From NCBI RefSeq assembly GCF_023503965.1, contig NZ_CP097298.1, positions 2,249,001 to 2,313,000 of the forward strand: a stretch of DNA of 64,000 nt, read 5' to 3'. This DNA comes from Brevundimonas albigilva. Lineage in GTDB: Bacteria > Pseudomonadota > Alphaproteobacteria > Caulobacterales > Caulobacteraceae. The notes under the pieces were generated by a model that was not told the DNA's origin, did no database searches, and worked only from the letters and a program-made list of their open reading frames with translations. Positions 32,556 to 54,425 of the stretch are shown in pieces. Each line of letters starts with the position of its first letter. Position 1 is the stretch's first letter. Position numbers and translations under genes: made by a program.

Positions 32556-32561
32556 TCCGTC

Positions 32562-34992
32562 ATGCTGCGTTCTGCGCTCGCGGCGGCGAGCCTAGCTCTG
32601 ATCCTCGGATAGGGGGTCGGCTCGCGCGGACCCGTTTGTCATCGACGATCTTCTGAAGCTCGAGCAGTTCGGTCAGGCTTCGCTCTCGCCCCAAGGGTCA
32701 AGCCTCGCTTTCGAGCGCATCGGCTCCGCTCTCGAGACCGGTCCCTACGAATATGACGCTCTGGATCTGGTGCTGCGCACCCAGGTTCTCGTCGCGGCGA
32801 CGGACGGTTCAGCCCCGCCGATCGGACTGACCCGACACCCTGATGGCGGCGGTCAGGTGATCGGAGCCTGGTCGCCCGACGGTCGTCGGTTGCTGGTCTA
32901 CCGTCTGGGGGACCGCACCTTCCAGGCCGGCATCGCCAATCCGGCCACCGGCGATGTCCGCTGGCTTCAGGGCACGCCGGAGAGCGCGATGTGGGGGCGT
33001 GCCGCGCAGTGGAGAGACGGCGAGCAGTTGGTTCTGATTCAGCGCGCGGCAGGCGATCTTCCGGCGATGATGCGACTGAGCTACGACGCTGGAACCCGCA
33101 TGCAGCACCTGTGGGGGCTGACCCGGGAGGGCCGAGAACCGGGACGCACGGTGATCGGCGCCGGCGCCTTCCGCGATGCGACGCCACGGCCTCGGAGCTC
33201 CAGTCTCGTGCTGGTGACGACGACCTCTGGAGAGCAACGGACCCTTGCGACAGGCCGCTTTCATGATCTGGAAGTTTCACCGGGCGGGCGGTTCGTCGCC
33301 GCCGCGCGCTTCACCGATGATCGCCCCTTCGATCCGTCCGTTCCCTTCCTGCAGGGCGACTTCTCCACGCGCCGCGAACTGACGCTGGTCGATCTCGACA
33401 CCGGAGCGGTCTGGGAGCCGCTTCCCGGACTGGATCTGTCACCTAATCTCATGACCTGGTCCCCTTCGGGACGCCGCCTGCTCGTCTGGGTGCGCCAAGA
33501 CGGACAGTCGTGGTCGGAAGGCCGATTGGTGGAGATCGATCCTCAGCGGAAGACGGTGGCCTGGACGTCGCTCCATGGTCGCCGGCCTGCCCTGGTACAG
33601 ACCGGTCTGCGGACCGAAGTCATCTGCGCGGACTGGCTGGGGGACCGACCGATGCTCTACGTCCAGGGCGAAGCACGCAGGGACTGGGTGCGTCTGGGCC
33701 CTTTCGATGCGCGCGTCCTGACCAGAGATCTCGCATCGCCATCCTCGTCTCTTCTGGCCGTGTCGCGCAGCCATATCGCCGTCCAGTCCGGCGGCGAAGT
33801 CTGGTCGGTGGATCAGGTCGGACACGCCCTGCGATTAAGCCAGGGACGAAGGGTCGCCTCTGGCGTAACCACCGCCCTGTTCAGCCAGGGCCAAAGGTTC
33901 CAGTTCAACAGTCCGACGCGGCAAGATTGGGTGCTCGTCGGAGAGGGCAACGGCATTCAGCGACGGCGTTTGATCGACGGTGCGCCTCTCGGCGAACCTC
34001 TGGCGGGCGAGCGCATCGTAGCGATTGATGAGAGCCAAGCCGCCGTGGTGCAGACCGACGGCGTCCGGGAGATCCTCAGCCGCGCCGACGGCGCGCGCCT
34101 GGCCCGGATCAACGATCATCTGTCGGGCGTGGTGTTCGCAAGCCCCGAGGCCGTGGGGCATACGGCCAAGGACGGCTCCCCGCTCGTCAGTTGGCTCTTC
34201 CGGCCCGCCGCGAGCGGACTGCAGCGGCCGCCGCTGATCATCATTCCCTATCCCGGCGGTCCGGCTCGCGCCCCGTCGCCGACCGAAGCGGACATCGCCA
34301 CCAATGTGCAGTTGATGGTCGCCGCCGGTTATGCGGTGCTCATACCGAGCCTGCCCCGGGTCGAACACCGGGGCGAACCGGCTGAAGACATGGCTGCGGA
34401 CATCCTGCGCGCCGTGGACGCCGCGGCTCTGACGGGCGCGTTCGACCCGGACCGGCTGGTGCTGTGGGGGCATAGCTTCGGCGCCTATTCGGCCGTCGCG
34501 GCTGCCACCCAGTCGTCAAGGTTTTCAGCCGTTATCGCCGCCAACGGCCCCTACGACCTGCTGAGTGTCTGGGGGCAGTTCGCCTTGCCTCAGTCCCTGG
34601 CCCCGGAAGACGGGCTGCCGGTCAGATCCCGCGCGGGGTGGGTCGAGACCGGACAGGGCGGATTGGGGGCGCCGCCCTGGACTGACCCAGCCCGTTACAT
34701 ACGCAACAGCCCGGTCCTGTCAGCGAACCGGATCACGGTTCCGGTCCTGCTGATCACGGCGGACAGGGATTACGTCCCTCCAGCCCAGGCGCAGGAGCTG
34801 TTCTCGGCTCTCTATCGCCAACAGAAGGATGTGGTGCTGGTCACCTACCGCGGCGAAGGACATGTGCTGTCGAGCCCGGCGAACATCCGGGACATGTACG
34901 ATACGGTCTGGCGCTGGCTGGACGAGGTTCTGGCCCGAGCGTCTCCGGCCGCTGGGGTTGGGCCGGAGCCAGCCCAGGCCCCGGCGCGGTGA
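32562..34992 (+). CDS. Lasso peptide isopeptidase (AtxE2-like, prolyl-oligopeptidase family), one frameshift
   Basis: Serine hydrolase predicted to cut the isopeptide bond of imported lasso peptide, turning it into a linear peptide. A signal peptide (MLRSALAAASLALIL) starts at 32562 and the literal frame stops a few codons later. Removing one G near 32607 restores the mature frame (ADPFVIDDLLKLEQFG), for about 809 codons. After an N-terminal beta-propeller, the C-terminal alpha/beta-hydrolase has the nucleophile motif GHSFGAYSA, an acid in ITADRDYVPPAQ and His in GEGHVLSS. Family identification rests on the fold plus its neighbours (lasso genes on the other strand, FecI/FecR/TonB upstream). 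Confidence 0.85.
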
Positions 34993-34995: not shown

Positions 34996-36473
34996 TCATT
35001 CGAAGTGGCGCCCGATGTAGCCGACCCTGACGTGCGGCGCCGTCTCCTGTACATCGAAATAGATCCGCACACACTGGTCCGGCGAGACTCCATCATTGGG
35101 CTTGGCGTGGAGCTCGAACGGCGTCGGCTTGCCGTCGATCGGGAAGGTTCGCCGCTTCATGGAGTCACGGCTGTTGCGGATCGTCTCGGACTCGATCGAG
35201 GCATTGACCCCCGATCCTTGAGCCAGGTCGGGACGGTCCCGCCCAAGGCGCCGGCCGCCCGCGTCGCCGCCAGTTCAGCCAGGACGTCGAGATACCTCAG
35301 CACCTTCTCGGGCGGGCCGGCCTCCGAAGACAGGGCGGCGGCCTGATCGTCGACGGCGTCGCCGAACAGGATCGAGCCGCCCCACCGGCGGCGCGCGATG
35401 GCCAAGGCCTCCAGGACCGTAGCCGGCGGCGGTTCTTCGCCGGCCGGCTCGTCGGCGGTCGACTGCGATCTCAGCGCGACGTTCAGCGCGGCCAGATTGT
35501 CGTTCAGCGTCGAAATCTCAGCGTCCCGCGCCTCCAGGGTCGCCTCAAGTTGCGCGATCCGCGCGACGAGATCTTCGCTCGAGGCGGTCTCGGCGCTGCG
35601 GACGGCGGGGGCGTCCCGCAGGCGTACAAACCGCCTGAACGCCTGGTCGTCCGCGACGAAGGTGGAGGCGTCGAGAAGACGGCGGCGCAGGTCCTGACGC
35701 AGCCGATCCCGCGCTTCGACCTCGTCGTCGCCCCGTGCGGTCAGGCGATCCCGCGTCCAGAGCGGATGGTTGCGCGGACGCTCCTGATTGCCCCGGAAGG
35801 GCCAGAACAGGCGAACGGCTCCGTTGTAGCAGGACCACTCGCGATCCAGCCGTTCCGTCACCGCCCAGGCGGCCGCCTGATCGATGCGACAGACATGGGC
35901 CAGGCCGCAGACATCGGAGGCGAGACGCGAATGCAGATCGCCGGCCAGGGTCTTGCCGTCGAGCTCGGAGACGAGGATCAGCGGCAGGCGGCGCTGCGGC
36001 GACTGAAGCAGGGCCAGGAACATCTCCACGTCCGCTTCAGCAATCCGGGCGAAAGTGGAGAGCAGATGCTCGCCCTCGATTGACGCCCGCCAATCGATGT
36101 CCAGGGCGATGATCTCGCGAACGAAGCGCGGGGTGAAAAGATCGATGCTCGGCGGGGCAAGTCCGCCCTCGACGCCCAGGGAGAGGGTGCAGTTGAAATA
36201 CAGGTCGGCCTCGGTCGCCAGAACCCGCGCCGCCGTCAGAAGTTCGCCTGTGCGAACCGGTTCGAGCACATCGAAGCTCGCGCAGCGCTGGTCCCCGACC
36301 TGGTCGTCCCTCCGGTCGGTCATGGCGGTGGCCCCGCTGCGCTGGATGATCGCCGCGCCGTCTTCAGAGGTCGAGAATTTGCCGTCGGCCCAGCGTTCCA
36401 GCGCCGCCATCACCTGTGGAAGGTCGGCGGCCTTCCCGGGAGCCACCACCTGAATTTTGCCGACGACCTGCAT
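34996..36473 (-). CDS. Unrecognised conserved-looking protein with coiled coil, downstream of the lasso cyclase, one frameshift
   Basis: About 492 residues once one G is added to a G run at about 35207, joining TWLKDRG to NASIESETIRNSRDSMKRRTF and ending at TGA 34996-34998. The N-terminal half includes RRLPLILVSELDGKTLAGDLHSRLASDVCGLAHV and SCYNGAVRLFWPF. Residues about 330-370 form a heptad-rich coiled coil (VARIAQLEATLEARDAEISTLNDNLAALN), and a compact C-terminal beta domain ends VRVGYIGRHFE. I recognise a recurring architecture but no assigned function. It begins 92 bp after the cyclase stop and may share its transcript, yet no known lasso maturation gene looks like this; it could be separate cargo. 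Confidence 0.75.
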
Positions 36474-36564
36474 TGCGCCTCCCTGCCGAGCGCAGCCTAC
36501 AGGCGAGCAGAAAAATCCCAAACAACCTTGATCGATCAAGTCGATCCGGGCGGCCGTCAGCCCC

Positions 36565-38272
36565 TCAGCGCTTCCAGGCCTGAAGCCAGCTCTCGACGAG
36601 GGCCAGGACCATCAGTTCGCCGTAGCCGCCCTGCCAGATGAGGTGCTCGACCCTGAGCGCGGCCTCGACCTGATCCCTGTTGATGAGCCCTTGGCCCGCC
36701 AATCGACCTTCGAGGAGGTGGGGACGAAGCTGGTTCAGATTCGCCGCCAGGACCCGACCATAATAGCCGCTAAGCTCCGCCTTCGACCGTCTTTGCAGGA
36801 GGATCGTAGGCAGACGATCCGCGAAGGCGTTGCGGGCAAGCAGCCGATCATGTCCGCCCCTCGTCAGCTGATAGGTCGGCGTGGCGAGAACGGCCTCCAT
36901 GACCGGCTGACTGAGGGCCGGGTGAAGCAGGTCAACGCGCCTCGTTCGTTGCGAGGGGCTATGAAGCCCGAGATTGCTGGCGAACCCGAGAATCTGCTGC
37001 CGTTTGCCCGGGCCCAGACCCGTAAGATCGGCCAGCCAAGGGTGCACGGCGCGGGGGCGTTCTCCACCTCTCCGCTCAACAGGAGATTTGACGGCGGCGC
37101 TGGACGCTCAGCCGAGGTCGAGCCGGCCCATCCGGCTTTGAGCACACGCCATGCCGAGCGCCGCAAACGTCTTGCCAGCACAGGCGCGGTCCGGCTGAAT
37201 AGTGCGCCCGGACCCTGGTCGCGGATCTGATCGCTCAGGATCGCCGATGTCGCCGTCTGGAAGAAGGCGACGTCGCCGCCCTTGCCCGTAAGCACCGCAT
37301 CGACATCGTGCCGGTCGCAAAGCTCCGCCTGCAGGGCGTCATAGGTCGCGTCCATGCGATTGAGGCTGGGTCGAAGGGTTCTGGGATGATCGAATGCCAG
37401 GCCTGCGGCCATATCCTCTGACGTCCTGAGGACCTCGGTCAGGCTTTCGTCCATGGCCTCCACCACCGCCCGCGCGTACCGGCGCTCGTCGGACTCGGCG
37501 AAGGGGCCGCTGGTGTTGAGCCAAATGACCTCCCCGCCAAAGCCGGACGCCTTCAGGGCCGTCGCCATGATCGCCGAATCCAGTCCGCCGGACACCTCAG
37601 TCAGGATCGAGGTTCGAGCCCTCGTCATGTCTCTCACTGTCGCATCGACGACCGCGCGCAAGCCAGCTTCGTTCGCGGGACGCCCCGGCGGGCGGCAAGC
37701 GATGGCGACCAGATGATCCGGGTCGCTCCCCTGTCAGGTGCAGGACGCCCGGCGTAACCGTCCGCCAGGACGACAGCATGTCAGCGCTGGAAAGGAGGAC
37801 CGGGTCACGCAGCACCTGCGCCACCGTGGTCCAGCAAATCGGCGGGTGATCATTAGTGGCGTCTACCAGCCAGTCCGGAGTCTGACTGGCCACAATCCAG
37901 CACCGCCCCGATTGAGCGCGCGCGCAATCCACAGCGCCGGACGGGTCTCTGAAAACTCCGCTCAGCGCCCCGTCGTTGCCGAGAAACAGTACGACGTAGC
38001 GTCCCCAACCCTCGCAGGCGAGCATTCGACACAGGGCTTCTTCATTCTCGAACCTCTCCTCACCGAGGCGACGCATTTGCACGGTGTCGCCGACGATGAA
38101 GGCCTGCCCCGCTTTCCAGGGCGACGCGCTGGACGCCTGCGTTCCGGACGGCGATCCATCCGCACGGCTCCATCTCCGTAATCTGCCAGCCCTCGGCGCG
38201 CGCGGCGTCACGCATGATAGCGTAAGCCCCGGCGTGGGCCTCCAGGCCGATGAGCGCGACGAACTCGATCAA
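36565..38272 (-). CDS. lasC: Lasso peptide cyclase (asparagine-synthetase-like C protein), three frameshifts
   Basis: ATP-dependent ligase that adenylates the core Glu9 side chain and joins it to Gly1, closing the macrolactam. The N-terminal amidotransferase-like domain (IEFVALIGLEAHAG) lacks a catalytic Cys, as usual in lasso cyclases. The synthetase domain has the pyrophosphate loop SGGLDSAIMATAL and a C-terminal AELSGYYGRVL region. The start is TTG at 38272, overlapping the B gene stop (TTGA). Frame changes near 38110, 37729 and 37059, the last two clearly in G or C runs, split it; net length is about 569 residues. Sequencing errors are more likely than triple inactivation, but that needs proof. 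Confidence 0.85.
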
Positions 38273-38910
38273 GGCCCGACCGCCAGTATCGGGGTATAGA
38301 GCCCGACCCGATCGAGATCGTCGTCCAGCAGGACATCGCCGATCTGCAGCCAGCAATGGGCCGAGAAGGGCCAGGTCCTCACCCCGAAGATCCACGTCGA
38401 GCCTAGGCCCTGGGCGGCGAGGCAGGCGCGGAGGAGGTAGGCCCGATAGACGCACTGGCCCTGTCCGGGCAGCCAAGGCATCCAGCGATCAAACAGGCGG
38501 GCCTGCGCCATCGCACTGCCCGCGTCATCAGGCCGGAGAGGAACGCTAGGCGACTGCTCGATCAGGCGTTTCAGAGGGCGGCCGTGAATGCGGCCGAAGT
38601 GCCGGATCGCTGCGGCAAGAAACGGAGCATCAAAGCGGGCGACGGGGTCGCCGTGACTATAGGTCCGGCTCGTTCGTCTGGGTCGGGAAGGCGGCTGGGG
38701 CGCCGACGTCTGGTGCGACGCCTGAAACAGGCCGGTTGCGATGAGGCCCGGCTCGAGGTCGGGCGCGCCCCCCGACCACAGGCCTTGGCCTTGGTCGACG
38801 AGATGCGCCGCCAACTGAGGCAGACACAGATAGGCGTCGGTGTTGAGATCCAGGATGACGAGATCGTCCTCAACGGTGACGGCATGAACATGGGGGGCGG
38901 TGGAGATCAT
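38269..38910 (-). CDS. lasB: Lasso peptide B protein: PqqD-like leader-recognition domain fused to transglutaminase-like protease
   Basis: 213 residues. Residues about 8-65 form the PqqD-like RiPP recognition element (VTVEDDLVILDLNTDAYLCLP) that binds the precursor leader. The C-terminal half is the B2 cysteine protease, with Cys153 in GQGQCVYRAYLLRACLAAQG and His185 in FSAHCWLQIGDVLLDD. It cleaves after the leader residue following the conserved Thr. The fused form is typical of proteobacterial clusters. Spacing: 51 bp from precursor 2, and a 4-bp overlap with the cyclase. Confidence 0.9.
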   Translation of the reverse strand: MISTAPHVHAVTVEDDLVILDLNTDAYLCLPQLAAHLVDQGQGLWSGGAPDLEPGLIATGLFQASHQTSAPQPPSRPRRTSRTYSHGDPVARFDAPFLAAAIRHFGRIHGRPLKRLIEQSPSVPLRPDDAGSAMAQARLFDRWMPWLPGQGQCVYRAYLLRACLAAQGLGSTWIFGVRTWPFSAHCWLQIGDVLLDDDLDRVGLYTPILAVGP

Positions 38911-38961
38911 CGCGGCGACGGCGACGGCGTCGGCCGCCGGCGCGAGCCGGCGGCCTTGCCT

Positions 38962-39081
38962 TCAGCCCATCGGCTTGATGCGGGTGAAGTCGATTTCCAG
39001 GACACCCTGTTCATCGCCCCCGCGGGTCAGGGTGCGCGCCTCGCCGAGGCGGATGAGGCGGATCAGGTTTGCTGCAGGCAT
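38962..39081 (-). CDS. lasA: Lasso peptide precursor 2, predicted core GGDEQGVLEIDFTRIKPMG
   Basis: 39 residues. The 20-residue leader ends TLTR, with the conserved Thr at position -2; the core of 19 residues starts with Gly1. Glu9 (in QGVLE) is the expected isopeptide partner, giving a nine-residue ring and a ten-residue tail ending KPMG. GAGGAGAG precedes the ATG at 39081. The leader is nearly the same as in precursor 1 (RLxRLGxARTLTR) while the core differs, the usual sign of a two-product lasso locus. Ring size is inferred from sequence. Confidence 0.9.
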   Translation of the reverse strand: MPAANLIRLIRLGEARTLTRGGDEQGVLEIDFTRIKPMG

Positions 39082-39146
39082 TTCAGTCTCTCCTCTTGGA
39101 CGCCGCGTGATTGCGGCAGGAGAAGGAGGCGACCCCGCAGCCGCGG

Positions 39147-39171
39147 CGGCAATCTATATTGCCGTATATTC
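39147..39171 (-). promoter_or_regulatory. Conserved element upstream of precursor 2 (copy B)
   Basis: A 25-bp block matching 21 of 25 bases with 39391-39415. It lies 65 bp before the precursor 2 ATG, against 61 bp for copy A. Its core GGCAATCTATATTGCC is an inverted repeat (GGCAAT/ATTGCC). Equal placement before both precursors suggests a promoter or operator copied along with the precursor gene. Confidence 0.6.
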
Positions 39172-39212
39172 GAGGCAGCGGGCGTCGACGGCAGGCCGAC
39201 GCCCACCCTCGT

Positions 39213-39329
39213 TCAGTCCGCCCGGATGTAGGTGGCGTCCAGCTCGAGCACGCCCTGGTGCCACTGGCCCCGGGTCAGCGTACGCGCGTCGCCCAGACGA
39301 ACCAGGCGGATGCAGATTGCGTTCAACAT
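39213..39329 (-). CDS. lasA: Lasso peptide precursor 1, predicted core GQWHQGVLELDATYIRAD
   Basis: 38 residues. The 20-residue leader ends TLTR and the 18-residue core starts with Gly1. Glu9 in the shared QGVLE segment is the expected ring partner, giving a nine-residue ring and a nine-residue tail. Trp3 and His4 in the ring and Tyr14 in the tail differ from precursor 2. A GGAGA site precedes the ATG at 39329. It is the first gene of the biosynthetic block. Confidence 0.9.
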   Translation of the reverse strand: MLNAICIRLVRLGDARTLTRGQWHQGVLELDATYIRAD

Positions 39330-39390: not shown

Positions 39391-39415
39391 CGGCAAACTA
39401 TATCTCGGTATATTC
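39391..39415 (-). promoter_or_regulatory. Conserved element upstream of precursor 1 (copy A)
   Basis: Matches copy B at 39147-39171 in 21 of 25 bases. It overlaps the last codons and stop of the HTH gene (the EYTEI end), so the precursor promoter is embedded in that gene. The inverted repeat seen in copy B is only partly kept here, favouring a promoter role or asymmetric binding. Confidence 0.58.
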
Positions 39416-39898
39416 AGCGCCCGGGTTTCGGACGTGCTCGACGAAGCTGATTTTCCCCGCCTTCAACCAGTCTTCCTCAGTCCCGCCGACAGATCTCTCG
39501 ATCAGATCGCGGACGCTGGCGTTGACCACGGCGACAATCGTGCGTGCGTCGATGGTTGCGATCCGGTCGCCCAATTCGTCATTGATCTCCTGCACGGCGA
39601 TCATGACGATCCGCATCATCTTGTTAGTGGCGCAGCGAATGGCGAACTCCGGCGACCCAATCGCCAGGGACGCAAAAATCGCGTCCGGATCCGCGTCCAC
39701 AAAACGGCAGAACCGATGAATGTAATCGACGTTCAGACGACCGCGCCCGCCTTCAAAATCCTGGTAGGTGCGCAGGGCGAGATTCATGCCGACGGCCGTC
39801 TCGATCGCTGAGAAGCCGCGCAGCCGACGAATGCCGCGAATGGCTGCGGAAAGAACTTCGCTGTCGTTCTGGAACTCCGATCGGCCCGCTGGCGTCAT
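39398..39898 (-). CDS. HTH-domain protein at the head of the lasso biosynthetic block
   Basis: 166 residues. An N-terminal Cro/C1-like HTH (AAIRGIRRLRGFSAIETAVGMNLALRTYQDFEGGRGRLN) is followed by VDADPDAIFASLAIGSPEFAIRC and a helical C-terminal domain (MMRIVMIAVQEINDELGDRIATIDARTIVAVVNASVRDL). The start at 39898 excludes 17 non-conserved upstream codons. It is read in the same direction as the precursors, 68 bp before precursor 1. It is probably a regulator of the locus, with the C-terminal domain perhaps binding a ligand or dimerising. Confidence 0.78.
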   Translation of the reverse strand: MTPAGRSEFQNDSEVLSAAIRGIRRLRGFSAIETAVGMNLALRTYQDFEGGRGRLNVDYIHRFCRFVDADPDAIFASLAIGSPEFAIRCATNKMMRIVMIAVQEINDELGDRIATIDARTIVAVVNASVRDLIERSVGGTEEDWLKAGKISFVEHVRNPGAEYTEI

Positions 39899-40116
39899 GT
39901 CACAACCTCGCCGGGATAGGTTGGGCGCCGAACGTCGTCCGTTCAACATTAAGATGCACTCGCAACCCGCACAAAGCCGTCCTGCGCGAAATTATCGCGC
40001 CGAAGTGCGAGCTTTCCGGACCATTCCGGTACAAAGACTGCGCAGGACAACGGCTCAGCTTTCAACTGAGGAGCGAATATCCGTACCCTGATGATTCGGA
40101 ATCCAGGGAGCCCTGA

Positions 40117-40710
40117 GTGGCGCGTAATCGAGATCCGTTTGCTGCCGCCTTGCGGACGCTCCGCGAACGCGTGGTGACGGGCGTGTTCTCGCCCGGACTA
40201 TCGATCATCATTCTCGACGAGGCGAAAGCCTTGGGACTCTCGACCACGCCGGTCCGCGAGGCGTTGGCCTGGTTGGGCGGAGAAGGTCTGATCGAACGGG
40301 CTCCGGCGGGCGGCTATTCCGGGCTGAGATTGGATGCCGCCGGTCTGGCGGGGCGCTATCGCCTGCGTCGGCACTGTCTGCGGGAAGGTCTTGCGCGGGC
40401 CACCCTCGTCGGCTGCCGCATCGAGGCGCCCGACGACCCTGACTTCTTCTTCCGCCAGATCGTCGCCGCCTCCGCGGACGCGGTGATCGTCGACACATTT
40501 GATCGGGTCCAGGCGAGCTTAGCGCCCTTCGCCGCCATCGAGACCGAACTGGTGGGAGACATGCCGGACAGTCTCCAAGTTGTGGCTCGCCTTCTTCGTG
40601 ACAGCGCCCTGAGCGAAGCCGCCCTGGCCCTGGACGCCTTTCATGAGCGCCGGATTGAGGTCTCGCCCCTGCTCTGTCTGGGCGCGCCGCCCAGGGCAGG
40701 CGCGGGATGA
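40117..40710 (+). CDS. GntR-like winged-helix regulator near the lasso locus
   Basis: 197 residues. LRERVVTGVFSPGLSIIILDEAKALGLSTTPVREALAWLGGEGLIERAPAGGYSG is the GntR DNA-binding fold. The C-terminal part is helical but lacks the conserved metal-binding His residues of FCD domains, so its ligand is uncertain. The start is GTG at 40117. It is divergent from the HTH gene, with about 220 bp between them that must hold both promoters. Regulators of this type sit beside lasso loci in related bacteria, so a link is plausible. Confidence 0.75.
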   Translation: MARNRDPFAAALRTLRERVVTGVFSPGLSIIILDEAKALGLSTTPVREALAWLGGEGLIERAPAGGYSGLRLDAAGLAGRYRLRRHCLREGLARATLVGCRIEAPDDPDFFFRQIVAASADAVIVDTFDRVQASLAPFAAIETELVGDMPDSLQVVARLLRDSALSEAALALDAFHERRIEVSPLLCLGAPPRAGAG

Positions 40711-41603
40711 CGCCGGCTCCGGCCCCCAGGCTGGATATGACCTCTCTGAGGTGGTCCATCGCCGTGGCCAGCGCCGGCGGGTTTCGCAAGGCCGCCGACG
40801 CGCTCGGTGTCGAACAGTCGGCCTTGAGCCGCAGGGTGCGCGCGCTCGAAGACGAAATCGGGGTCTCTCTCTTTCACCGGGGGCCGGGCGGCGCCGCCCT
40901 AACCTTTGCGGGCGCCGCCTTCGTCGCCAGTGTCGAAACCGCTCTGGCCGTCCTCTCCGAAGCCGTCGCGGACGCCCGCGATGCCGGACGGGGTCGTCGA
41001 GGGCGGTTGAGGATCGGCCTCACGCCCTCCTTCCTGTCGGCGGCCCTGTATGCACTGCTCGCCCGGTTTCGGGACGCTCACCCCGAGGTGCAGATCGAGT
41101 TGATCGCCGGAGAAGCGCAGTCGCACCTCGCCGCTGTCGCGGATCGCCGGCTCGATCTCGCCGTTCTGCCCGGCGGCATGACTGTGTCCGGGCTCGACGT
41201 CTCGGAGCTCTGGCGTGAGCCGCTCCACATCGTCCTGCCCAGGACGCACCCGCTTGCGCGGGCGGATCGCATCGACGTTGAGGATCTGGCCAGCCAGACC
41301 CTGTTGGTCAGTCAGGGAGATGTCGGCGACGATGTCCTGGGTCGAACACCTTCTAAACCCGCGCTCCGGATCAAGGTCGTCGGCGCCGGGCTGGCTGTTC
41401 TTGCGGCTCAGGTCGAGCTTGGGCTCGGACTGGCTGTCGTCGCCTCCGGCGCCTTGGACACCTCGATCCTGCCCCCTGGTCTGACGCACCGCCCCCTGTG
41501 CTCGGGTGATGGGCTGACCGTCGGCTTCGCGGCCGCCTGGTACCACCGCAACGACAATCCCGCTCTCCGGCGTTTTGTCAGTTCGGCGCGTCGATTCGTC
41601 TAG
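40707..41603 (+). CDS. LysR-family transcriptional regulator
   Basis: 298 residues. The N-terminal HTH (LRWSIAVASAGGFRKAADALGVEQSALSRRVRALEDEIGVSLFHR) is followed by the substrate-binding domain (RLRIGLTPSFLSAALYALLARFRDAHPEVQIELIAG). It overlaps the GntR-like gene by 4 bp and so is co-translated with it. A LysR gene next to DUF2274/trbI is also common in trb-type integrative elements, so it may belong to the conjugation module rather than to the lasso genes. Confidence 0.88.
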   Translation: MTPAPAPRLDMTSLRWSIAVASAGGFRKAADALGVEQSALSRRVRALEDEIGVSLFHRGPGGAALTFAGAAFVASVETALAVLSEAVADARDAGRGRRGRLRIGLTPSFLSAALYALLARFRDAHPEVQIELIAGEAQSHLAAVADRRLDLAVLPGGMTVSGLDVSELWREPLHIVLPRTHPLARADRIDVEDLASQTLLVSQGDVGDDVLGRTPSKPALRIKVVGAGLAVLAAQVELGLGLAVVASGALDTSILPPGLTHRPLCSGDGLTVGFAAAWYHRNDNPALRRFVSSARRFV

Positions 41604-41866: not shown

Positions 41867-42969
41867 TCAGTCACCGTAAGGAACGAGATCCAGGTCTCGA
41901 TTGAGGATGATGCGAAAGGTCAGGCCGGGACGCAGGGTCAGGCGCGGCGGAATGGACAGGCCGCGTTCCACCAGACCCCGGCCGAGCGTGTCCACGCCGT
42001 CTGTCGCTCCATCCCGCAGGGCGCGCGCCAGCCGATCGTCCGCCTCGACGTCGACGGCGGCGCCGCTGATCGCCAGGAGTGTGGTCAGGGCGGCGGACCG
42101 GAGCCTTCGCCCCATCGTGAATCCGTCCGGTCCTGGAGCCCGGCATAGCCGCGCGCGTCGGAGGCGGCCTGATCCTCCAGCGCAATGGAGGCGCCGTCGG
42201 GCAGGACGATGCGCGTCCAGACGACCTGAAGACGGGATTGCCCCTGAGCGATCTGGGCCGAATAGCCGCCGATCAGACGAGAGCCCTTTGGGATCAGAAG
42301 ACGGCGCCCGGTATCGCTGTCGTGAACATCCGCGGTGATCTGGCCCAGCACAGGCCCGGGCAGATCGGACTGCACGCCGGTCACCAGGCCGGCTTCGATG
42401 ATCGATCCCGCCCTGAGGCGCAGGGCGCCGATCGCCGGAGCCGAGGCATCGGCGGCGGGCCCCTGCGTCGGTCCGCCGCGAGCAACGTCAGCCTCCTCCT
42501 CGACCGAACGGCCGCCGCCCTGCGAAATCACCAACGCCGAGGTGCGCGCGGCGTCCGCCTCCGCATGGCGACGCGCGCGCTCGGCCTCGCGGGCGTCGGC
42601 GTCACGGGCCGAGGCCGCCTGGATGGAGCCGGCGGTCGACGACGCGGGCTCCGCGTCGGCCGCATTGCGCGCACTGAGAATCGGCCGGCCCAGATCCCCC
42701 GGCAACGGCGGACCCAGGCGCGGCGCGGCGTAATCGCCGGGCAAGGCGCGCACGGCGTCGGGCGGCGGGGCGGACGACGGGGTCAGTTCCTGTGCCGGCG
42801 CCGCATCGTCCTGCGTCGACAGGCCGACGACCGCAGCGGCGGCGACAGCGACCGCGAGGCCCGCCGCCCCCGCGAGGGCGACCTTGCGCGAGAGGCGCAG
42901 GGGCTTGGGCGGTTCAGCGCGCAGTCGCATCGCCTGCACCGCCGGATCGGGGGTGGAGACCTCGCTCAC
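41867..42969 (-). CDS. trbI: Type IV secretion protein TrbI/VirB10, one frameshift
   Basis: Inner-to-outer membrane core-complex protein of the conjugation channel. A short cytoplasmic start, one membrane segment (about 31-50), a long Pro/Ala-rich periplasmic linker, then the VirB10 barrel: LRAGSIIEAGLVTGVQSDLPG, LIPKGSRLIGGY and GLSIPPRLTLRPGLTFRIILNRDL. One missing G near 42112 splits GYAGLQDRTD from WGRRLRSAALTT; restored length is 367 residues. Confidence 0.92.
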
Positions 42970-43823
42970 CGGCCGGCTCCCCGCTTTTCGATGAGAACGG
43001 TCTGGGTGCGTCGACCGGTCACCAGTCGCAGTTCGGCCGCGTCGAACAAGCGATCGACGATCAGCCGGCGACCGACAACCCTGTAGTTCACCAGATCGGC
43101 TTCTCCGTCCCCATTGCGCAGGAAGAGCGGCGGCAAGGTCGCCTGATCGATGGCGGCGTCGAACTCCAGGATCACCTGCCGGCCGTCATCGAAGACGCGC
43201 ACCGGCCGCCAAGGCGTTCGTGCGCCGCTGATGCGGTAGTTGAAGTCGAGATCGTCCAGCCGCAGCCTCGGCTCGGCGTCGCGCGCGGCCTGTCGGGCCG
43301 CCTCGGCTTGCAGAGCGATGAGTTCGTCCTGCGGATAACGCCAGGAGACGCCGACCATATAGGCGGAGGCGTGGGCGTTGAGCTCCAGATGATATGTCCG
43401 TCGATCCGTGTTGATGATCAGATTGGTCTTCAGGTCGCCGCGCGTGGGCTTGACCAGAATATGGGTCCGTCGCGTCTCGCCCGTTCCGCTTTGCGACTGG
43501 CCGATAATCCAGCGGACCGTGTCGCCGGCCGCGACCGCGCCCTGATCCGAAAGGACCTCGCCGGGCTGAAGAGCGATGTCGGTGACATGCCCCGGCGAGG
43601 CGTAGACCTGGAACAGGGCGCCGTCTTCGTAGGCGTAGACCTGGGCGCCGTTGAGCCAGGCCTCTCCGGACGGCTGCACCCGTGCGGCGGCGGTCGCCGC
43701 CGCCACACGCCCGGCCGGTCGCCCTTCCTCCGTGACGGTTCGGGAATTGCTCTGGGCCCAGGCGGGCGTGACGAGGAGCGAGAGCGCCACAAGGGCGCCG
43801 GCGTGCGCCAGGGGATGCCGCAT
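42966..43823 (-). CDS. trbG: Type IV secretion protein TrbG/VirB9
   Basis: Periplasmic/outer-membrane core-complex component. The signal peptide ends at PAWAQ. Conserved VirB9 elements are VYASPGHVTDIALQPGEVLS, THILVKPTRGDLKTNLIINTDRRTYHLEL, FNYRISG and FDDGRQVILEF. ATG at 43823 (285 residues) is chosen because the upstream extension is the trbF frame shadow; it overlaps the trbF stop by one base, and its 3' end overlaps trbI by 4 bp. Confidence 0.93.
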   Translation of the reverse strand: MRHPLAHAGALVALSLLVTPAWAQSNSRTVTEEGRPAGRVAAATAAARVQPSGEAWLNGAQVYAYEDGALFQVYASPGHVTDIALQPGEVLSDQGAVAAGDTVRWIIGQSQSGTGETRRTHILVKPTRGDLKTNLIINTDRRTYHLELNAHASAYMVGVSWRYPQDELIALQAEAARQAARDAEPRLRLDDLDFNYRISGARTPWRPVRVFDDGRQVILEFDAAIDQATLPPLFLRNGDGEADLVNYRVVGRRLIVDRLFDAAELRLVTGRRTQTVLIEKRGAGR

Positions 43824-44508
43824 CAGTTGATCTCCTTGGACCAGTTGAAGGCGTGGACGAGCACGCCGAGGGGATTGCTGCGCAGCGCATCCGCCGTCCT
43901 GGGCGGCTGCACCGTCACGGTCAGGATGGCTGTCCATCGCTCGGTCGCGGCCAACCGCCCGTCCACGAAGCGGCGCTCGGTCCAGGCCACGCGGAAGGAG
44001 GTCGGCGAGGCGCGGATGATGCTCGAGACCTCGATGCCAACCTGGACGCGGCCGATTTCCGCAAAGGGGTCGTTGGTCCGCGCGAAGTCCGAAAGGGCGG
44101 CGGCGCCTGATCGGTCGTATAGGCGTAGGCGCGCAGCCAGTTCTCCCGGACAACGACGGGATCGGCCGGAATGCTGCGTACCTGTTCGATGAACCGCCCG
44201 AGGTGCCAGGCGACCTGGGCGTCGGTGGGCGTGTAGTCCGCCTGCGCCGGCGCGACGGCGAGCGGTTCGCCGTGCTGATCGACCTCGACGATCCAGGGCG
44301 TGACGACGCCTCGCGCGGACTGGATCACGAGACCGGCGGCCAGACCGCCGGACAGGCCGATCGCCATCAGCGCCGCCAGCCGCCAGTTGCGCGCCTGGAC
44401 GCGGGCGCTGCCGATGCGGTCATCCCAGGCCTGGGCGGCGCGTTGATAAGGGGTCTCCGGCCCGGGCGACCGCCCATAGTGTCCGCCGGGCCGTTTGAAC
44501 GGGTTCAT
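43823..44508 (-). CDS. trbF: Type IV secretion protein TrbF/VirB8, one frameshift
   Basis: Bitopic inner-membrane assembly factor of the channel. N-terminus NPFKRPGGHYGRSPGPETPYQRAAQAWDDRIG, a membrane segment at about 43-62, then the periplasmic VirB8 domain. The frame changes near 44120; the second part reads AALSDFARTNDPFAEIGRVQVGIEVSSIIRASPTSFRVAWTER. Adding one base gives 228 residues, ending in TGATG with trbG. Its start overlaps trbL by 4 bp. Confidence 0.9.
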
Positions 44509-45844
44509 GAGCGATCCTCACTGACTGAAATGGAGGCGGATCCGCCGCGATGATCGCCGGCGCGGACTGCGTGAATGGCGGTGGAAACCCCGTGAGCGAC
44601 CGCCTGACGGCGTTCCATGTCCTTCGCCCACTGAGGCTTGGCCTCAGCCCTGGGGGCGGCGTCCCGCCGGTCGACGGCGAAGTCGGCGCTGATGAGGTCG
44701 GCGCTGGCGGGGGCGCAGAGGCTGACCCGCCCTCGTCGGATGCGGGAGGCGCGACTTGGGAAGGCTCCGCTGCGGCCGCACCCGGCCGTTCGCCGGCTGC
44801 GGCCGTCGGCGCCGCCGAAGCGGTTGAGCCGCCGCCGGATCGCGGACCCGATCCCGAGGGACCGCCCCCTGGACCCGAGGCCGACCCGCCGCCGCCACCG
44901 CCGCGCGTCGCGGCGACCGCGGTCCCGGCCCGGCCGGCCAGACCGGCGCCGGCGCCCAGGGCCAGCCGTGCGCCCGCGGCTCCGGCCATGGCGACGCCGC
45001 CGACCGCCAGCCCTGTTCCGATGGCGGCCCCGGCGCTCAGTTGGGGCGCGCCGGACACCAGGCCCGATGCGATGCCCGGTCCGAAAATGGAAAGGCCGGT
45101 CAGGGTCAGGGCGGCCAGGGTGATGGCCAGGACGTCCTCGAGCGCGGGCGGCTGTCCGGAGAAATCGTTGACGAAGGTGTCAAACATCGTGGAGCCGATG
45201 CCGACGATCACGGCCAGGACCAGCACCTTCACGCCGGAGGCCACCACATTGCCGAGCACGCGCTCGGCCAGGAAAGCGGTCTTTCCGAACAGCCCGAAGG
45301 GGATGAGCACGAAGCCCGCCAGGCTCGTCAGCTTGAACTCGATAAGGGTCACGAAGAGCTGGATCGCCATGATGAAGAAGGCGATCAGAACGATCAGGAA
45401 GGCCGTCATCAGGATGGCGATCTGGACGAAATTCTCGAAGAAGCCCGGGAAGCCCGACATCTCGGCGGCGGCCTCCAGCATCGGCCGACCGGCGTCTATA
45501 CCGGCCTGGGCGAGCTTGCCCGGACGCAGGAAGTCTGCGCTCGACATTCCCGATCCGGACGCTTTCAGACCGAGGCCGGCGAAGCTGGCGAAGACGATCT
45601 CCGACAGACGTTGGAAATTGCCGATCAGGAAGGCAAAGAAGCCGACGAAGAGGGTCTTCTTGACCAGGCGGGCGAGCACATCGTCCGACGGCCCCCACGC
45701 CCAGAACAACGCCGCGAGGGTGACGTCGATGACGATAAGGGTGGTGGCGAGAAAGGCCACCTCTCCGCCCAGCAGGCCGAAGCCGCCGTCGATGTAGCGG
45801 CTGAAGACCTCGAAGAACCGGTCGATGACGCCGGAGTCGTTCAT
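44505..45844 (-). CDS. trbL: Type IV secretion protein TrbL/VirB6, one frameshift
   Basis: Polytopic inner-membrane channel protein. FEVFSRYIDGGFGLLGGEVAFLATTLIVIDVTLA and about six further membrane helices, with the family stretch KLTSLAGFVLIPFGLFGKTAFLAERVLG. A long Gly/Ala/Pro/Ser-rich tail follows. One missing C in a C run near 44716 shifts the frame; restored, the tail ends WAKDMERRQAVAHGVSTAIHAVRAGDH, the normal TrbL ending, giving 446 residues. Confidence 0.9.
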
Positions 45845-46095
45845 GCCCGGTCTCCCGCGCCGAAGAAGCGCCGGCGGCTGTCCGCCCAGGCCGCATGGCA
45901 GGCCGGATCGGCGCCGGCCGCTTCGCCGAGATTGCGGCACCGGATCAGTTCATTCGATCCGCCGGGCGAGACGCGCGGCGTCTCCGGCATCGGCGGTTGC
46001 GCGCCCCGGCTGGCCAACAGAGCGGCGCCGATGGCGACGACGGCCAGCACGACGGTGGCCACGCCGAGCGGGTCGCGACGGAACAGCGCCCTCAT
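45841..46095 (-). CDS. Putative entry-exclusion protein TrbK-alt
   Basis: 84 residues. A short N-terminal membrane anchor (VATVVLAVVAIGAALLA), then ELIRCRNLGEAAGADPACHAAWADSRRRFFG, the TrbK-alt signature with two Cys. It sits between trbJ and trbL with overlaps on both sides. It probably prevents redundant uptake of the same element. Confidence 0.87.
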   Translation of the reverse strand: MRALFRRDPLGVATVVLAVVAIGAALLASRGAQPPMPETPRVSPGGSNELIRCRNLGEAAGADPACHAAWADSRRRFFGAGDRA

Positions 46096-46799
46096 TGGCC
46101 CGGGTCGCCCATGAACCGCCGGAAGCGCGCCTGGGCGTCCGCGCGGGCCGCCGCGCGATCCGCAGCGTCAAGGGCGTCGGCGCGACCCTGAGCGGCCACC
46201 AGCGCGGTCAGTTCGACCAATTGGGCGGACTGCAGCCCCAGGAGTTGGTTGCCGGCCTGGGCCGCCTGAAGCGCGCCCGTCGCCCCCTGACTGGCGCCCA
46301 CGAGCCGGTCGAGCTCCTGTCGCGTCGCGCCCAGTCCCTCGACGACGCCGGCCTGCAGGCGCATGGCGTCTTCAAGGCCTGCGACCGACGAACGCCACCG
46401 CTCACGCGCGCGCGCGACGAGATCGCGGTCGGTCGCCGACATTGGCGCCGCGCCGTATCGGCCGTCGAAGGCCGCCTCGATCTCGCGCACGTCATAGGCC
46501 AAGGTTTGGGCCTCGGCGAGCAGACCGCGAGTGCGCTCCACCTGACCCTGGAGCGTCTGCAAGGACGAATAGGGAAGGCTTTCCAGATTGCGGGCCTGGT
46601 TCATCAGGGCCGCGGCCTCGTTCTGCAGCGACTGGATCTGGTTGTTGATCTGCTCGAGCGCGCGCGCGGCCTGGATCACGTTCTGGATGTGATTGGTCGG
46701 ATCGTAGACGGCGAGTTGGGCCTGGGCGGGGCCGCTCAGGGCGAGAAGGCCGGCGGCGACGGCGACGGGGAGAAGGGCGCGCAGACGAAGGCGGGTCAT
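46092..46799 (-). CDS. trbJ: Type IV secretion protein TrbJ/VirB5
   Basis: Signal peptide ending PAQAQ, then the family start LAVYDPTNHIQNVIQAARALEQINNQIQSLQNEA and a helical, coiled-coil body ending FRRFMGDP. It is a minor pilus or adhesin component. ATG at 46799 gives 235 residues and a 4-bp overlap with trbE. Confidence 0.93.
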   Translation of the reverse strand: MTRLRLRALLPVAVAAGLLALSGPAQAQLAVYDPTNHIQNVIQAARALEQINNQIQSLQNEAAALMNQARNLESLPYSSLQTLQGQVERTRGLLAEAQTLAYDVREIEAAFDGRYGAAPMSATDRDLVARARERWRSSVAGLEDAMRLQAGVVEGLGATRQELDRLVGASQGATGALQAAQAGNQLLGLQSAQLVELTALVAAQGRADALDAADRAAARADAQARFRRFMGDPGQ

Positions 46800-49236
46800 G
46801 AGGGAGCTCCAGGGGATGAGGGCGTCAGGGCAGGCAGAAGGTCTGCGGCCCAGGCGAGGCCGCGATGGCGCAGCCATGCGTCTGCGAAGCCGGCGGGGCC
46901 GGCCGTCTCGAGGAGGGTGCGGATGGCGGTCTGGTCGGCGGCGGACGAGGCGGCGCAGAAGGCCAGCGCGACCGGGCCGAGGCCGAGTTCGAACATGCGG
47001 TCGCCGGCCCGGGACTGGCAGTAGTAGTCGCGCTTGGGCGTCGCCTGTGCGAGGAGATCGATCTGGCGGTCATTGAGGCCGAAGCGCCGGTAGACTGCGG
47101 CGATCTGCGGCTCCCGGGCCCGGGCGTTCGGCAGGAACAGTCGGGTCAGACAGCTCTCGATGATCGCCGGGGCGATCGGGCTGTTTTCAATGTCGGCGAG
47201 CGACTGGGTTGCGAAAACGACCGACGCATTCTTCTTGCGCAGGGTCTTCAGCCATTCGCGCAACTGGGCCCCGAAGTCCGGATCGTCGAGCGCCAGCCAG
47301 CCTTCGTCGACGAGGATCATTGTGGGGCGGCCGTCCAACCGCGCCTCGATCCGGTGAAAGAGATGGGCCAGCACCGCCGGCGTGGCGGCCGAGCCGATCA
47401 GGCCTTCGGTCTCGAAGGCCTGGACCGATCCGGTCCCGAGATGTTCGTGATCGCCGTCGAGCAGCCGCCCCCAAGGTCCGCTCAGGGTGAAGGGGGCGAT
47501 GGCGCGCTTCACCGCGCCGCTCTGGACCAGTGCGGCGAAGCCGGACAGCGTCCGTTCCGACGCGGGCGCGCCCGCCAGACTGGTCAGGGCCGACCAGATC
47601 TGGTCCTTGGTCTCGGGGTCCACGGGCACGCCCTCCCGGGCCAGCAGGGCGACCAGCCAGGCCTGGGCCCAGGCGCGCTCGCCCGGGTCGTCGATCCCCT
47701 CCAGCGGCTGCAACGTGAGACCGCTCCCCTCGCCGGACAGGGCCTGTCCGAGATCATGGAAGTCCCCGCCCATGGCCAGGGCCGCCGCGCGGATCGAGCC
47801 GCCGAAATCGAAGGCGAACACCTGGGCCGCGGGATAGCGGCGGAACTGCAGGGCCATCAGGGCGAGCAGGACGCTCTTTCCGGCGCCGGTCGGTCCGACC
47901 ATCAGGGTATGGCCGACATCCCCGACATGATGGGAGAAGCGGAAGGGTGTCGCCCCGTCCGTGCGGGCGTGGAACAGCGGCGGCCCACCCAGGTGGGGGT
48001 TCCAGTCCGGGCCGGCCCACACCGCCGACATCGGCATGATATGGGCGAGGTTGAGGGTCGAGATCGGCGGGGTCCGGACATTGGCGTAGACGTGGCCGGG
48101 CAGACCCCCAGCCAGGCCTCGACGGCGTTGAGACTCTCGGCGATGCAGGTGAAATCTCGCTCCTGAACCACCTTTTCCGCCTGCCGCAATTTCGCGTCGG
48201 CGACGGCGGGATCGGCGTCCCAGACGGTCAGGGTCGCCGTGACCAGGGCATAGCCGACGCCGTCGGCCCCGAGGTCTTGGAGCGCCATATCGGCGTCGGC
48301 GGCCTTGTTGCCGGCGTCGGTGTCGACCAGGGCGGAGGCCTCATTGGTCATCACCTCCTTGAGGAGGGCGGCGATGGATTTGCGCTTGGCGAACCATTGG
48401 CGCCGGATACGCCCGAGCAGGCGTGCGGCCTCGGTCTTGTCCAGGCAGATCGCCCGGGTCGTCCAGCGGTAGTCGAAGTCCAGCCGGTTGAGTTCGTCGA
48501 GGATCCCCGGCCAGGTCGCGGTCGGAAACCCGATCACCGTCAGCACCCGGAGGTGGGCCTCGCCGAGGCGCGGCTCCAGACCGCCGACCAGGGCCCTGTC
48601 CGCCAGCAGGGCGTCTAGGTGCATCGGCGTCTCGGGCAGGCGCACCGCATGCCGTTCGGTGGAGACCGTGGCGTGAAGGAAGGTCAGGGTCGCTTCATCG
48701 TCGAGCCACGCCGCCAGCGGCATCAGGCCTTCGATCAGGGCGAGCAGCCGATCGGTCCGGTCGATGAAGCCGCGGACTTGGGCCGGCCAGTCCGCGCCCT
48801 TTTCCGCCCCGCCCTCATAGAGCCAGCGCGCGGCGCGTCCGCGGTCCTCCGCGGGCGGGAGCCAGACGAAGGTCAGGTGGTAGGCGCTCTCGTAATGCGC
48901 CTTCTCCGCCTGAAAATCGGCGCGGCGTTCGGCGTCGACGAGGCCCGAGACCGGGTCGGGAAAGACGCTGTCAGGATAGTCGGCGGAGGCGTGTCTCTGG
49001 GCCTCCACGAAAATGGCCCAGCCCGAACCGAGGCGTCGCAGAGCGTTGTTCAGCCGCCCCGCGACCCCGGCCAGTTCCGCATTGGCCGACGAGTCCAGAT
49101 CGGGTCCCCGAAAGCGGGCGGTGCGCTGCAGGGCCCCGTCCTTGTTGAGCACAACGCCGGGCGCGACCAGCGCAGCCCAAGGCAGAAAATCGGCCAGTTG
49201 TCGCGGCCGGGCGCGGTATTCCTGAAGGGAGAACAT
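46796..49236 (-). CDS. trbE: Type IV secretion ATPase TrbE/VirB4, one frameshift
   Basis: Energises pilus assembly and substrate translocation. N-terminal CagE/VirB4 domain (MFSLQEYRARPRQLADFLPWAALVAPGVVLNKDG), Walker A MVGPTGAGKSVLLALMALQF, Walker B TMILVDEGWLALDD and Gln motif VVFATQSLADI. One missing G in a five-G run (48106-48110) breaks the frame at LNAVEAWLGGLPGHVYANVR. Restored length is 813 residues. Confidence 0.94.
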
Positions 49237-49238
49237 GG

Positions 49239-49505
49239 TCAGACGTCCAGAAGGGCGGGCAGGCGCAGGTGGCGGCGGGCCACCTCGACGAAGTCCGGAT
49301 CATGGCGGGCGGCCAGAACGCCGAGGGCATGACCGACGATCCAGATCGCCACCCCGGCGAGCCAGAGTCTCAGGCCGAGGCCGAGCGCCGCGGCCAGGGT
49401 GCCGTTGAGGAGGGCCAGGGCGCGCGGCGCGCCGGCCAGCAGGATCGGCTCGACAAGGGCGCGGTGGACCGGAGCGGCGAAATCCTCGGGGATCGGATCG
49501 GCCAT
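49239..49505 (-). CDS. trbD: Type IV secretion protein TrbD/VirB3
   Basis: 88 residues. PEDFAAPVHRALVEPILLAGAPRALALLNGTLAAALGLGL followed by a second hydrophobic segment and HDPDFVEVARRHLR, the VirB3 pattern. Inner-membrane partner of TrbE, with its start overlapping the trbC stop. Confidence 0.93.
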   Translation of the reverse strand: MADPIPEDFAAPVHRALVEPILLAGAPRALALLNGTLAAALGLGLRLWLAGVAIWIVGHALGVLAARHDPDFVEVARRHLRLPALLDV

Positions 49506-49822
49506 CAGACCAGCGCGCCGCCGCCGAAGGAGAAGAAGCTGAGAAAGAAGGAACTGGCCGCGAAGGCGATCGATAGGCCGAAGACGATCTGGATGAGCCG
49601 ACGCGCCCCGCCGGAGGTGTCGCCGAAGGCCAGGGTCAGGCCGGTGACGATGATGATCATCACGGCGATGATCTTGGCGACCGGCCCCTCGATCGATTCC
49701 AGGATGGATTGAAGCGGCGCCTCCCAGGGCATGGAGGAGCCTCCCGCGAGGGCGGGAGACGCGGCGGCGACGGCGAGCGCCAGGACGGCGACGGAAACGG
49801 TGTGGCGGCGAACAGGGGTCAT
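49505..49822 (-). CDS. trbC: Conjugative pilin TrbC/VirB2
   Basis: 105 residues. A long signal peptide (cleavage near SPALAGG), then a pilin body of two hydrophobic helices (IAVMIIIVTGLTLAF and IQIVFGLSIAFAASSFFLSFFSFGGG). ATG at 49822 is preferred over the longer frame because the latter is antisense noise of trbB. TrbC pilins are often cyclised by TraF, which is also present (57047-57562). Confidence 0.92.
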   Translation of the reverse strand: MTPVRRHTVSVAVLALAVAAASPALAGGSSMPWEAPLQSILESIEGPVAKIIAVMIIIVTGLTLAFGDTSGGARRLIQIVFGLSIAFAASSFFLSFFSFGGGALV

Positions 49823-49847
49823 GGAGAGCTCCGGCGGGGTGAGGGGA

Positions 49848-50788
49848 TCAGGCGGCGACCGGGGCGAGGCGGTAGCGGCCGTCAGGGTCCAGGCCGTCGA
49901 CGACGGCCAGTTCGACCAGGCGTCGCGCCGCGCCCCGCCCCGACAGGACGGCGACGAGGTTGACGGTTTCGGCGATGAGGGCGCGGGGCGGCACGAGGAC
50001 CGCCTCCTGAATGAGTTGCTCAAGGCGGTTCAGGGCGCCCTGGGCCGAGCCGGCATGCAGGGTGCCGACCCCGCCGGGATGGCCCGTGCCCCAGGCCTTC
50101 ACCAGATCGAGCGCCTCGGCGCCGCGCACCTCGCCGATCGGGATCCGGTCGGGGCGCATTCGCAGGGCGGACCGCACCAGATCGGTCAGGGTCACGGCCC
50201 CGTCGCGGGTGCGTAGGGCGACGGTGTTGGGCGCCGCGCACTGGAGTTCGCGGGTGTCCTCGATCAGGATGATCCGGTCCTCGCCCGCAGCCAGTTCGGC
50301 GAGCAGGGCGTTGACCAGGGTGGTCTTGCCGCTGGAGGTGCCGCCCGCCACCAGGATGTTGCGCCGGGCCGCGACGGCCGTGCGCAGGGCCTTTGCCTGG
50401 TCGGCCCGCATGATTCCGGCGGCCACATAGTCGTCGAGGGTGAAGACGGCGACCGCGGGCTTGCGGATGGCGAAGGCGGGCGCCCGCACGATGGGCGGCA
50501 GGAGCCCCTCGAACCGCTCCCCGGATTCGGGTAGTTCCGCCGAGATCCGCGGACGGGCCTCATCGACCTCGAGCCCGACATGGTGGGCGACCAAGCGGAT
50601 CCCCGCTCTCCTTCGGCGGGGGCCAGACGATGAGGCGTCAGTTCCAGCCCGCCCGCCAGACGGTCCAGCCAGATTCGGCCGTCCGGATTGAGCATCACCT
50701 CGACGACATCCGGGTCGGACAGGGCGTCCAGAAGCGCCGGGCCGAAGGCGGTGCGGAGCATCCTGAGGGTGCGGGTTTGGGAGGTCAT
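49848..50788 (-). CDS. trbB: Type IV secretion ATPase TrbB/VirB11, one frameshift
   Basis: Hexameric secretion ATPase. [19 protein letters not shown] at the N-terminus, Walker [16 protein letters not shown], Asp box ILIEDTREL, Walker B and His box [31 protein letters not shown]. One missing G near 50605 separates AEGER from [13 protein letters not shown]. Restored from ATG 50788 it has 313 residues. It is the first gene of the trb operon. Confidence 0.94.
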
Positions 50789-52425: not shown

Positions 52426-52435
52426 CGTGGGGGCC

Positions 52436-54412: not shown

Positions 54413-54425
54413 GAGCAGGTTCCTT

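Follow-up and report, generated by a model that had tools for sequence, protein, structure and literature searches.

Does the lasso peptide locus of Brevundimonas albigilva (RefSeq assembly GCF_023503965.1, contig NZ_CP097298.1) encode genuine lasso peptides, and is it a resident of the chromosome or the cargo of a mobile element? The window analysed, a stretch of 64,000 nucleotides (positions 2,249,001 to 2,313,000 of the contig), had been described in a sequence-only reading as holding two precursor genes, a fused B gene and a cyclase gene at 36565-39329, a two-product locus of the Caulobacterales group. These genes are all located there on the minus strand with the cores as read, the lasso B2 model scores above its cut-off, and both precursors recur in two further genomes, Brevundimonas diminuta 470-4 (contig KB291784.1) and a Caulobacteraceae metagenome-assembled genome (MAG; contig JAIEQA010000067.1). 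The full locus is roughly double the size given in that reading and includes an isopeptidase-like gene, a receptor and FecI/FecR-type regulators (Table 1). Very probably, the window contains a lasso peptide system of the isopeptidase type that forms part of the cargo of a conjugative element integrated at dusA.

Precursors and core peptides

The gene order on the minus strand is helix-turn-helix (HTH) regulator, lasA1, lasA2, fused lasB and lasC. Lasso precursors consist of a leader with Thr at position -2 and a core with a small residue at position 1 and Asp or Glu at positions 7-9. All six precursors of the three loci show this pattern (...LTR, Gly1, Glu9). The cores of strain 470-4 are letter-identical to those of B. 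albigilva, and those of the MAG are GQWHEGVLELDGTYIRMA and GGAEEGVLEIDFTRIKPQG; residues G1, G6, V7, L8, E9, D11, T13 and I15 are invariant across the three loci. Since the conserved Glu9 is the only acidic residue within positions 7-9, a nine-residue ring closed at Glu9 is supported, with limits. The QGVLE motif from which this ring had been predicted is not fully conserved, as Gln5 is replaced by Glu in the MAG. The two leaders, earlier called almost identical, share by our own count 14 of 20 aligned residues and 12 of the last 14 (IRLxRLGxARTLTR), for which that wording is a little strong.

For lasA1, a GGAG motif is located just 5' of the ATG at 39329. A length of 38 rather than 42 residues seems likelier, because the MAG copy keeps this ATG and its GGAG and has no ATG at the upstream alternative (39341). 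The recurrence of both precursors, their order and their shared motif in two other genomes argues against a chance pattern. As both precursors are kept as separate types in three genomes, the two types predate the split of the loci. The two cores stayed distinct while protein B diverged by 43%, which argues that both peptides matter.

An upstream motif, AATATAYNGNNATATAG, allowing at most two mismatches, was matched twice in the 64 kb, once before each precursor, and in none of 100 shuffles. It occupies the same places in all three loci, unchanged or with few changes, and probably serves both precursors as operator or promoter.

Biosynthetic proteins and frameshifts

The C-terminal half of lasB matches both NF033537 and PF13471 above their cut-offs and affiliates with the lasso B2 proteins. 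Its N-terminal half, to which no model matched, is presumably the RiPP (ribosomally synthesized and post-translationally modified peptide) recognition element (RRE, B1), judging from its length and the fusion. Two pieces of lasC match PF00733 above the cut-off; their matches to NF033561, the macrolactam cyclase model, fall short of the cut-off. Intact lasC frames of 569 residues are present in strain 470-4 and in the MAG.

Several features of these genes weigh against the favoured reading. Protein C reaches 60.5 of the 300 bits set as cut-off for the curated NCBIfam lasso cyclase model. The lasC frame is broken by four frameshifting single-base insertions or deletions (indels) in the window assembly, and one or two are present in each of five further genes, namely the isopeptidase-like gene, the accessory gene next to it, trbI and the genes for the HTH and VirB8-like proteins. 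Changes relative to strain 470-4 fall on third codon positions in 49 of 86 cases in lasC and 87 of 145 in the isopeptidase-like gene, compared with 129 of 154 in the receptor gene (lasB, 14 of 21).

The locus might accordingly be a decaying, silent copy, with genuine frameshifts in lasC and in the isopeptidase-like gene and relaxed selection on the cargo of the island. The weaker third-position bias of these two genes agrees with such decay, as does the distribution of the indels. The element stretch shared with strain 470-4 (16.7 kb, 95.2% identical) has 14 indel events, with ten frameshifting single-base indels in six coding genes, whereas six compared genes of the flanking chromosome (~9 kb) have one apparent frameshift, so the element is affected more often. 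However, the single-base indels are concentrated in homopolymers, eight of eleven lying in runs of at least three identical bases (about 13% of random bases) and six of eleven in runs of at least four (about 4%), and the conjugation genes carry indels too. Moreover, the source genome is one contig, yet only 89% complete, while 26 of the 27 other one-contig genomes listed for the genus are 99-100% complete and the remaining one 91%, which fits indels throughout the genome. Because of this preference for homopolymers and the low completeness for a one-contig genome, the lasC frameshifts are probably, though not certainly, sequencing or assembly errors, and we consider decay of the locus unlikely.

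Isopeptidase, receptor and signalling genes

Genes for a sigma factor, a FecR-like protein, a TonB-dependent receptor and an S9-family peptidase (protein E) form one plus-strand block (28071-34992) convergent with lasC. Protein E has 809 residues in strain 470-4; after one indel, the open frame in the window comprises 740 residues (32770-34992). The best NCBIfam match of the strain 470-4 copy was the Atxe2 lasso isopeptidase (NF033523, E 2.3e-20), and a three-row profile of E found AtxE2 (5txc, E 8e-4). The stretches GHSFG, TADRDY and GEGH are invariant where the triad of a serine hydrolase is expected. Three results count against this assignment: the score of 72.9 bits is well below the curated NF033523 cut-off of 400, general S9 peptidases outscore AtxE2 in the profile search, and an AlphaFold model from a two-row alignment had a predicted local distance difference test (pLDDT) score of 34, was unusable and gave no structural support.

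Isopeptidase clusters have a near-constant layout, with GntR before the precursor and the receptor and sigma/anti-sigma genes after the isopeptidase, according to the sections of PMC9266682 consulted, and the locus fits this layout in content. The role of isopeptidase-type lasso peptides is described as still debated in the same sections. The clusters of astexin, caulosegnin and benenodin likewise have the order A-B-C with a fused B, more than one precursor, an S9 isopeptidase-like gene, a TonB-dependent receptor, a FecR/sigma pair and GntR; as in these clusters, no ATP-binding cassette (ABC) transporter was found among the open reading frames (ORFs) scanned, here those of 28071-41603. In contrast to them, the present locus resides on an integrated element with conjugation genes, has a candidate defence gene between C and E, encodes C and E proteins below the model cut-offs, and has cores sharing at most eight residues with any of 24 described peptides.

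It is highly improbable that these enzymes yield another macrolactam or an unthreaded branched ring instead of a lasso. The model scoring best for protein C, below its cut-off, is the albusnodin/ikarugamycin macrolactam cyclase; nevertheless, the leader Thr at -2, Gly1, Glu9, the fused B and the isopeptidase-like gene are all present, and threaded lassos are the substrates of such isopeptidases, as stated in the consulted part of PMC9266682.

The accessory gene between lasC and the isopeptidase-like gene has one indel in the window and up to 514 residues in strain 470-4. This gap holds different candidate defence genes in two lineages (HEC-07/NsnC-like, and DUF2971/PDC-S31 at L049:7782-8594), as though the lasso cluster had acquired an internal slot for defence genes.

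The dusA-integrated conjugative element

The sequence-only reading had placed the locus on a conjugative element, and this is well supported by an integrase at dusA, 39-bp repeats, a relaxase, a coupling protein, type IV secretion system genes and an identity to strain 470-4 of 95-97% as against 76-90% for the chromosome. An integrase of the same kind is located beside dusA in strain 470-4 (91.9% identical) and in the MAG (77.9%), where attL is matched at 39 of 39 and 38 of 39 positions, respectively. The attR repeat (37 of 39) was found at 82707-82745 in window numbering, beyond the window and 61 kb from attL. The conjugation module comprises TrbI, CagX/TrbG, VirB8-like, TrbL, DUF4141 (below cut-off) and VirB4-like proteins, a VirB11/TrbB-like ATPase, a type IV coupling protein (T4CP/TraG) with a DUF3363 relaxase, and a lytic transglycosylase. 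In strain 470-4, VirB8, TrbI, a separate relaxase (586 aa), the T4CP (658 aa) and the VirB4-like protein (813 aa) are encoded by whole frames. Relaxase and coupling protein form one frame of 1275 residues at 52436-56263 in the window and two genes in strain 470-4; the fused frame is probably due to an assembly indel.

Compared with strain 470-4, the lasso block is 95% identical in DNA over 16.7 kb and the conjugation block 97% over 17.3 kb, whereas seven chromosomal matches longer than 400 bp are 76-90% identical and dusA itself is 83.9% identical. A recent transfer of both blocks would be the simplest reading. The third-position G+C of the lasso block is 0.72-0.86, compared with 0.76-0.96 in the left flank (median 0.91 of 18 ORFs; the rule used to select ORFs is biased towards high values).

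Some of the evidence on the element points the other way. The integrase of strain 470-4 is encoded on a contig other than that of the lasso block, so that their linkage there is presumed, and attR was located only in the source genome. The regions 22873-28145 and right of 62280 were unmatched in the stretches fetched from strain 470-4, and the integrase is less similar than the two blocks; the elements are therefore mosaics. A resident chromosomal lasso locus that lies near an old island and is itself not mobile could also be envisaged, given how widespread lasso B genes are in the genus. This reading is most improbable: in the window, the cluster is situated between the att repeats and beside trb genes; it is on one contig with the integrase and part of trbI in the MAG, and with trb genes in strain 470-4; it is present in only three of the 131 genus genomes searched, and exceeds the chromosome in its identity to strain 470-4. 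Carriage of the lasso cluster by the dusA-integrated element is well supported, with its transfer being suggested by these comparisons.

Islands specific to dusA likewise have an integrase beside dusA, an att repeat in the 5' end of dusA and variable cargo that includes conjugation genes (PMC4482086, in the parts consulted, which name no lasso or RiPP cargo); their att repeat is 21 bp and semiconserved, compared with 39 bp and two mismatches here. An earlier description of a lasso system on a conjugative element was not evident in the literature listings searched; PMC4235733 covers a lasso peptide and integrative and conjugative elements, each under a different section. Precursor A2 had no match among plasmid records; for protein B there were two weak Polymorphobacter matches among plasmids, at 37% coverage, and no match among viral contigs.

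A search for empty sites with the joined flanks gave junction-spanning matches (e.g. positions 1-482 of 600 in genome G050 and 1-546 in G100). They were not counted as empty sites, because the right flank itself resembles, by eye, the start of a second dusA-type integrase, and they may be other islands or remnants. This resemblance to the window integrase is located right of attR (L054:18746 onward), and dusA islands may sit in tandem. Near the integrase, 23947-27434 contains a DUF5131 gene (PDC-M41B/M30B) with flanking ORFs matching PDC-M30A, another candidate defence system.

Proposed model

In the model that we favour, the N-terminal RRE of B would bind both leaders (IRLxRLGxARTLTR) and its cysteine-protease half would cut after ...LTR. 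Protein C would then link the Gly1 amino group with Glu9, so that the C-terminal tail is trapped within a ring of nine residues, and two class II lasso peptides of predicted mass ~2053.00 and 2043.01 Da would result. Outside the cell, the cognate TonB-dependent receptor would bind the peptides and, by way of its STN domain and FecR, signal to the extracytoplasmic function (ECF) sigma factor; once imported, the peptides would be opened by the S9 isopeptidase-like enzyme. The shared AATATAYNRNNATAT element is probably the site through which GntR or the neighbouring HTH protein controls both precursors, and the conjugative element would move the package between Brevundimonas species.

The presence of genes for production, sensing, uptake and opening on one conjugative element suggests a self-sufficient package, a property that is open to test in one recipient strain with and without the element. 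A further step, quite unlikely in our estimation, is an element-borne signalling or scavenging circuit in which the peptides of carriers are recognised by the receptor, FecR and sigma factor that the element itself encodes and are then destroyed by its isopeptidase. If so, carriers would detect each other or have a bound nutrient in common, a trait that pays for the persistence of the element, and the two conserved peptides, with their different tails, would both be ligands of a single receptor.

Table 1 Features of the lasso locus and of the integrated element (window coordinates)
Feature	Position	Strand	Evidence
dusA, insertion target; attL in its 5' end	20680..21693	-	PF01207, E 1e-76
attL, 39 bp	21647..21685	+	Repeat comparison
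Tyrosine integrase of the element, adjoining dusA	21806..22867	+	PF00589, E 3.5e-18
ECF sigma factor (FecI-like), 162 aa	28071..28559	+	PF08281, E 2.5e-17
FecR-like anti-sigma factor, 325 aa	28574..29551	+	PF04773, E 9e-25
TonB-dependent receptor with STN signalling domain, 979 aa	29616..32555	+	PF00593, PF07715, PF07660
S9-family isopeptidase-like protein (E)	32561..34992	+	PF00326, E 9e-26
Accessory gene between lasC and isopeptidase, candidate anti-phage	34996..36539	-	PADLOC HEC-07 (E 1.7e-33) and NsnC (E 1.1e-13) on the strain 470-4 copy
lasC, putative macrolactam (isopeptide) synthetase, asparagine synthetase family, several frames	36565..38272	-	PF00733 on two pieces
lasB, fused B1 (putative RRE) and B2 leader peptidase, 213 aa	38269..38910	-	NF033537, E 4.3e-17 over residues 97-211; PF13471, E 1.3e-19
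lasA2, precursor with core GGDEQGVLEIDFTRIKPMG, 39 aa	38962..39081	-	ORF; core identical in strain 470-4, similar in the MAG
Conserved element AATATACGGCAATATAG upstream of lasA2	39154..39170	-	Match search and three loci
lasA1, precursor with core GQWHQGVLELDATYIRAD, 38 aa	39213..39329	-	ORF; core identical in strain 470-4, similar in the MAG
Conserved element AATATACCGAGATATAG upstream of lasA1	39398..39414	-	Match search and three loci
HTH (Xre-like) regulator just upstream of lasA1	39415..39949	-	PF13560 below cut-off (E 0.006 here, E 1.2e-4 in the MAG)
GntR-family regulator, divergent from the precursors	40117..40710	+	PF00392, E 6.4e-7
LysR-family regulator	40707..41603	+	PF03466, PF00126
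Conjugation module, several frames broken here	41867..57050	-	Pfam

Novelty of the cores

Neither core is among the 62 described lasso peptides in Table 1 of PMC12427821, the part of that source compared, and six core fragments were absent from the full text of the literature searched, in which a sequence split into separate letters would escape. Gapped alignments with 24 of the 62 peptides gave at most eight common residues, between core 1 and astexin-1 and between core 2 and caulosegnin III, ubonodin and astexin-1. Brevunsin from Brevundimonas diminuta belongs to the same genus, has Gly1 and Glu9 and is of class II; its core GDMGEEVIEGLVRDSLYPPAG, as given in that table, shares six residues with core 1 in alignment. 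Precursor A1 had only chance matches, to Tn5 transposase, among sequences of the PDB (entries of at least 20 residues). The cores, which had been proposed as new, are thus new as described compounds and not as sequences, being already contained in the public genome of B. diminuta 470-4. They may also be listed in supplements of genome-mining surveys, beyond the literature searched.

Distribution and related precursors

Genes similar to lasB (E <= 0.001) occur in 69 of the 131 genus genomes. The only close relatives of B among these are those of strain 470-4 (97%) and the MAG (57%), the next best match having an E value of 6e-39. With a family-wide profile of B, the same three genomes scored below 1e-100, and 119 of 390 genomes had a match at E <= 1e-30; in a class-wide search at E <= 1e-40, only the source genome was found among the 385 sampled. 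Similarly, the A2 query found only the same three genomes below E 1e-5. A five-row precursor profile, which itself included the three top-scoring genomes, gave only these three below 1e-20, a next best value of 8.7e-7, and matches at E <= 0.01 in 72 of 390 genomes. Most of the weaker precursor matches span the leader and extend no further than the beginning of the core; one genome (G025, GGFDITVTEADLQPYRPMA) matches along nearly the full precursor length, though weakly (E 0.003 and 1.7e-4).

Two lasso-like precursors also occur at loci L006, L011, L012 and L016, and the caulosegnins have three precursors per cluster, as the consulted part of PMC13352647 describes. Several precursors per lasso cluster are ordinary. 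At other loci, several modules are joined in one frame. Single frames with two tandem leader-core modules are located upstream of lasB at L018, L019, L021 and L030, those of L019 and L021 being very similar, and a frame with three such modules at L080:4792-5223. Each of the modules shows ...TRA and Glu at core position 9. With the one pattern used, tandem-module precursors were found at four of the 32 B-centred loci L001-L032. To our knowledge, multi-core lasso precursors have not been described, and none were evident among the 20 titles listed, of 836 hits, in a loose literature search.

The genome of B. albigilva itself holds further lasso genes. A third lasso B gene (G000:C1:182521-183132; L003, L052) is accompanied by a sigma factor, a receptor and an S9 peptidase facing the cyclase; receptor, peptidase and cyclase have the same convergent order as in the window, with only ~260 bp between peptidase and cyclase. 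The second lasso locus of the host (L051 ~10565-10780, minus strand; C1 ~651565-651780) contains an apparent two-module precursor of this type, whose modules lie in two different frames in the present assembly.

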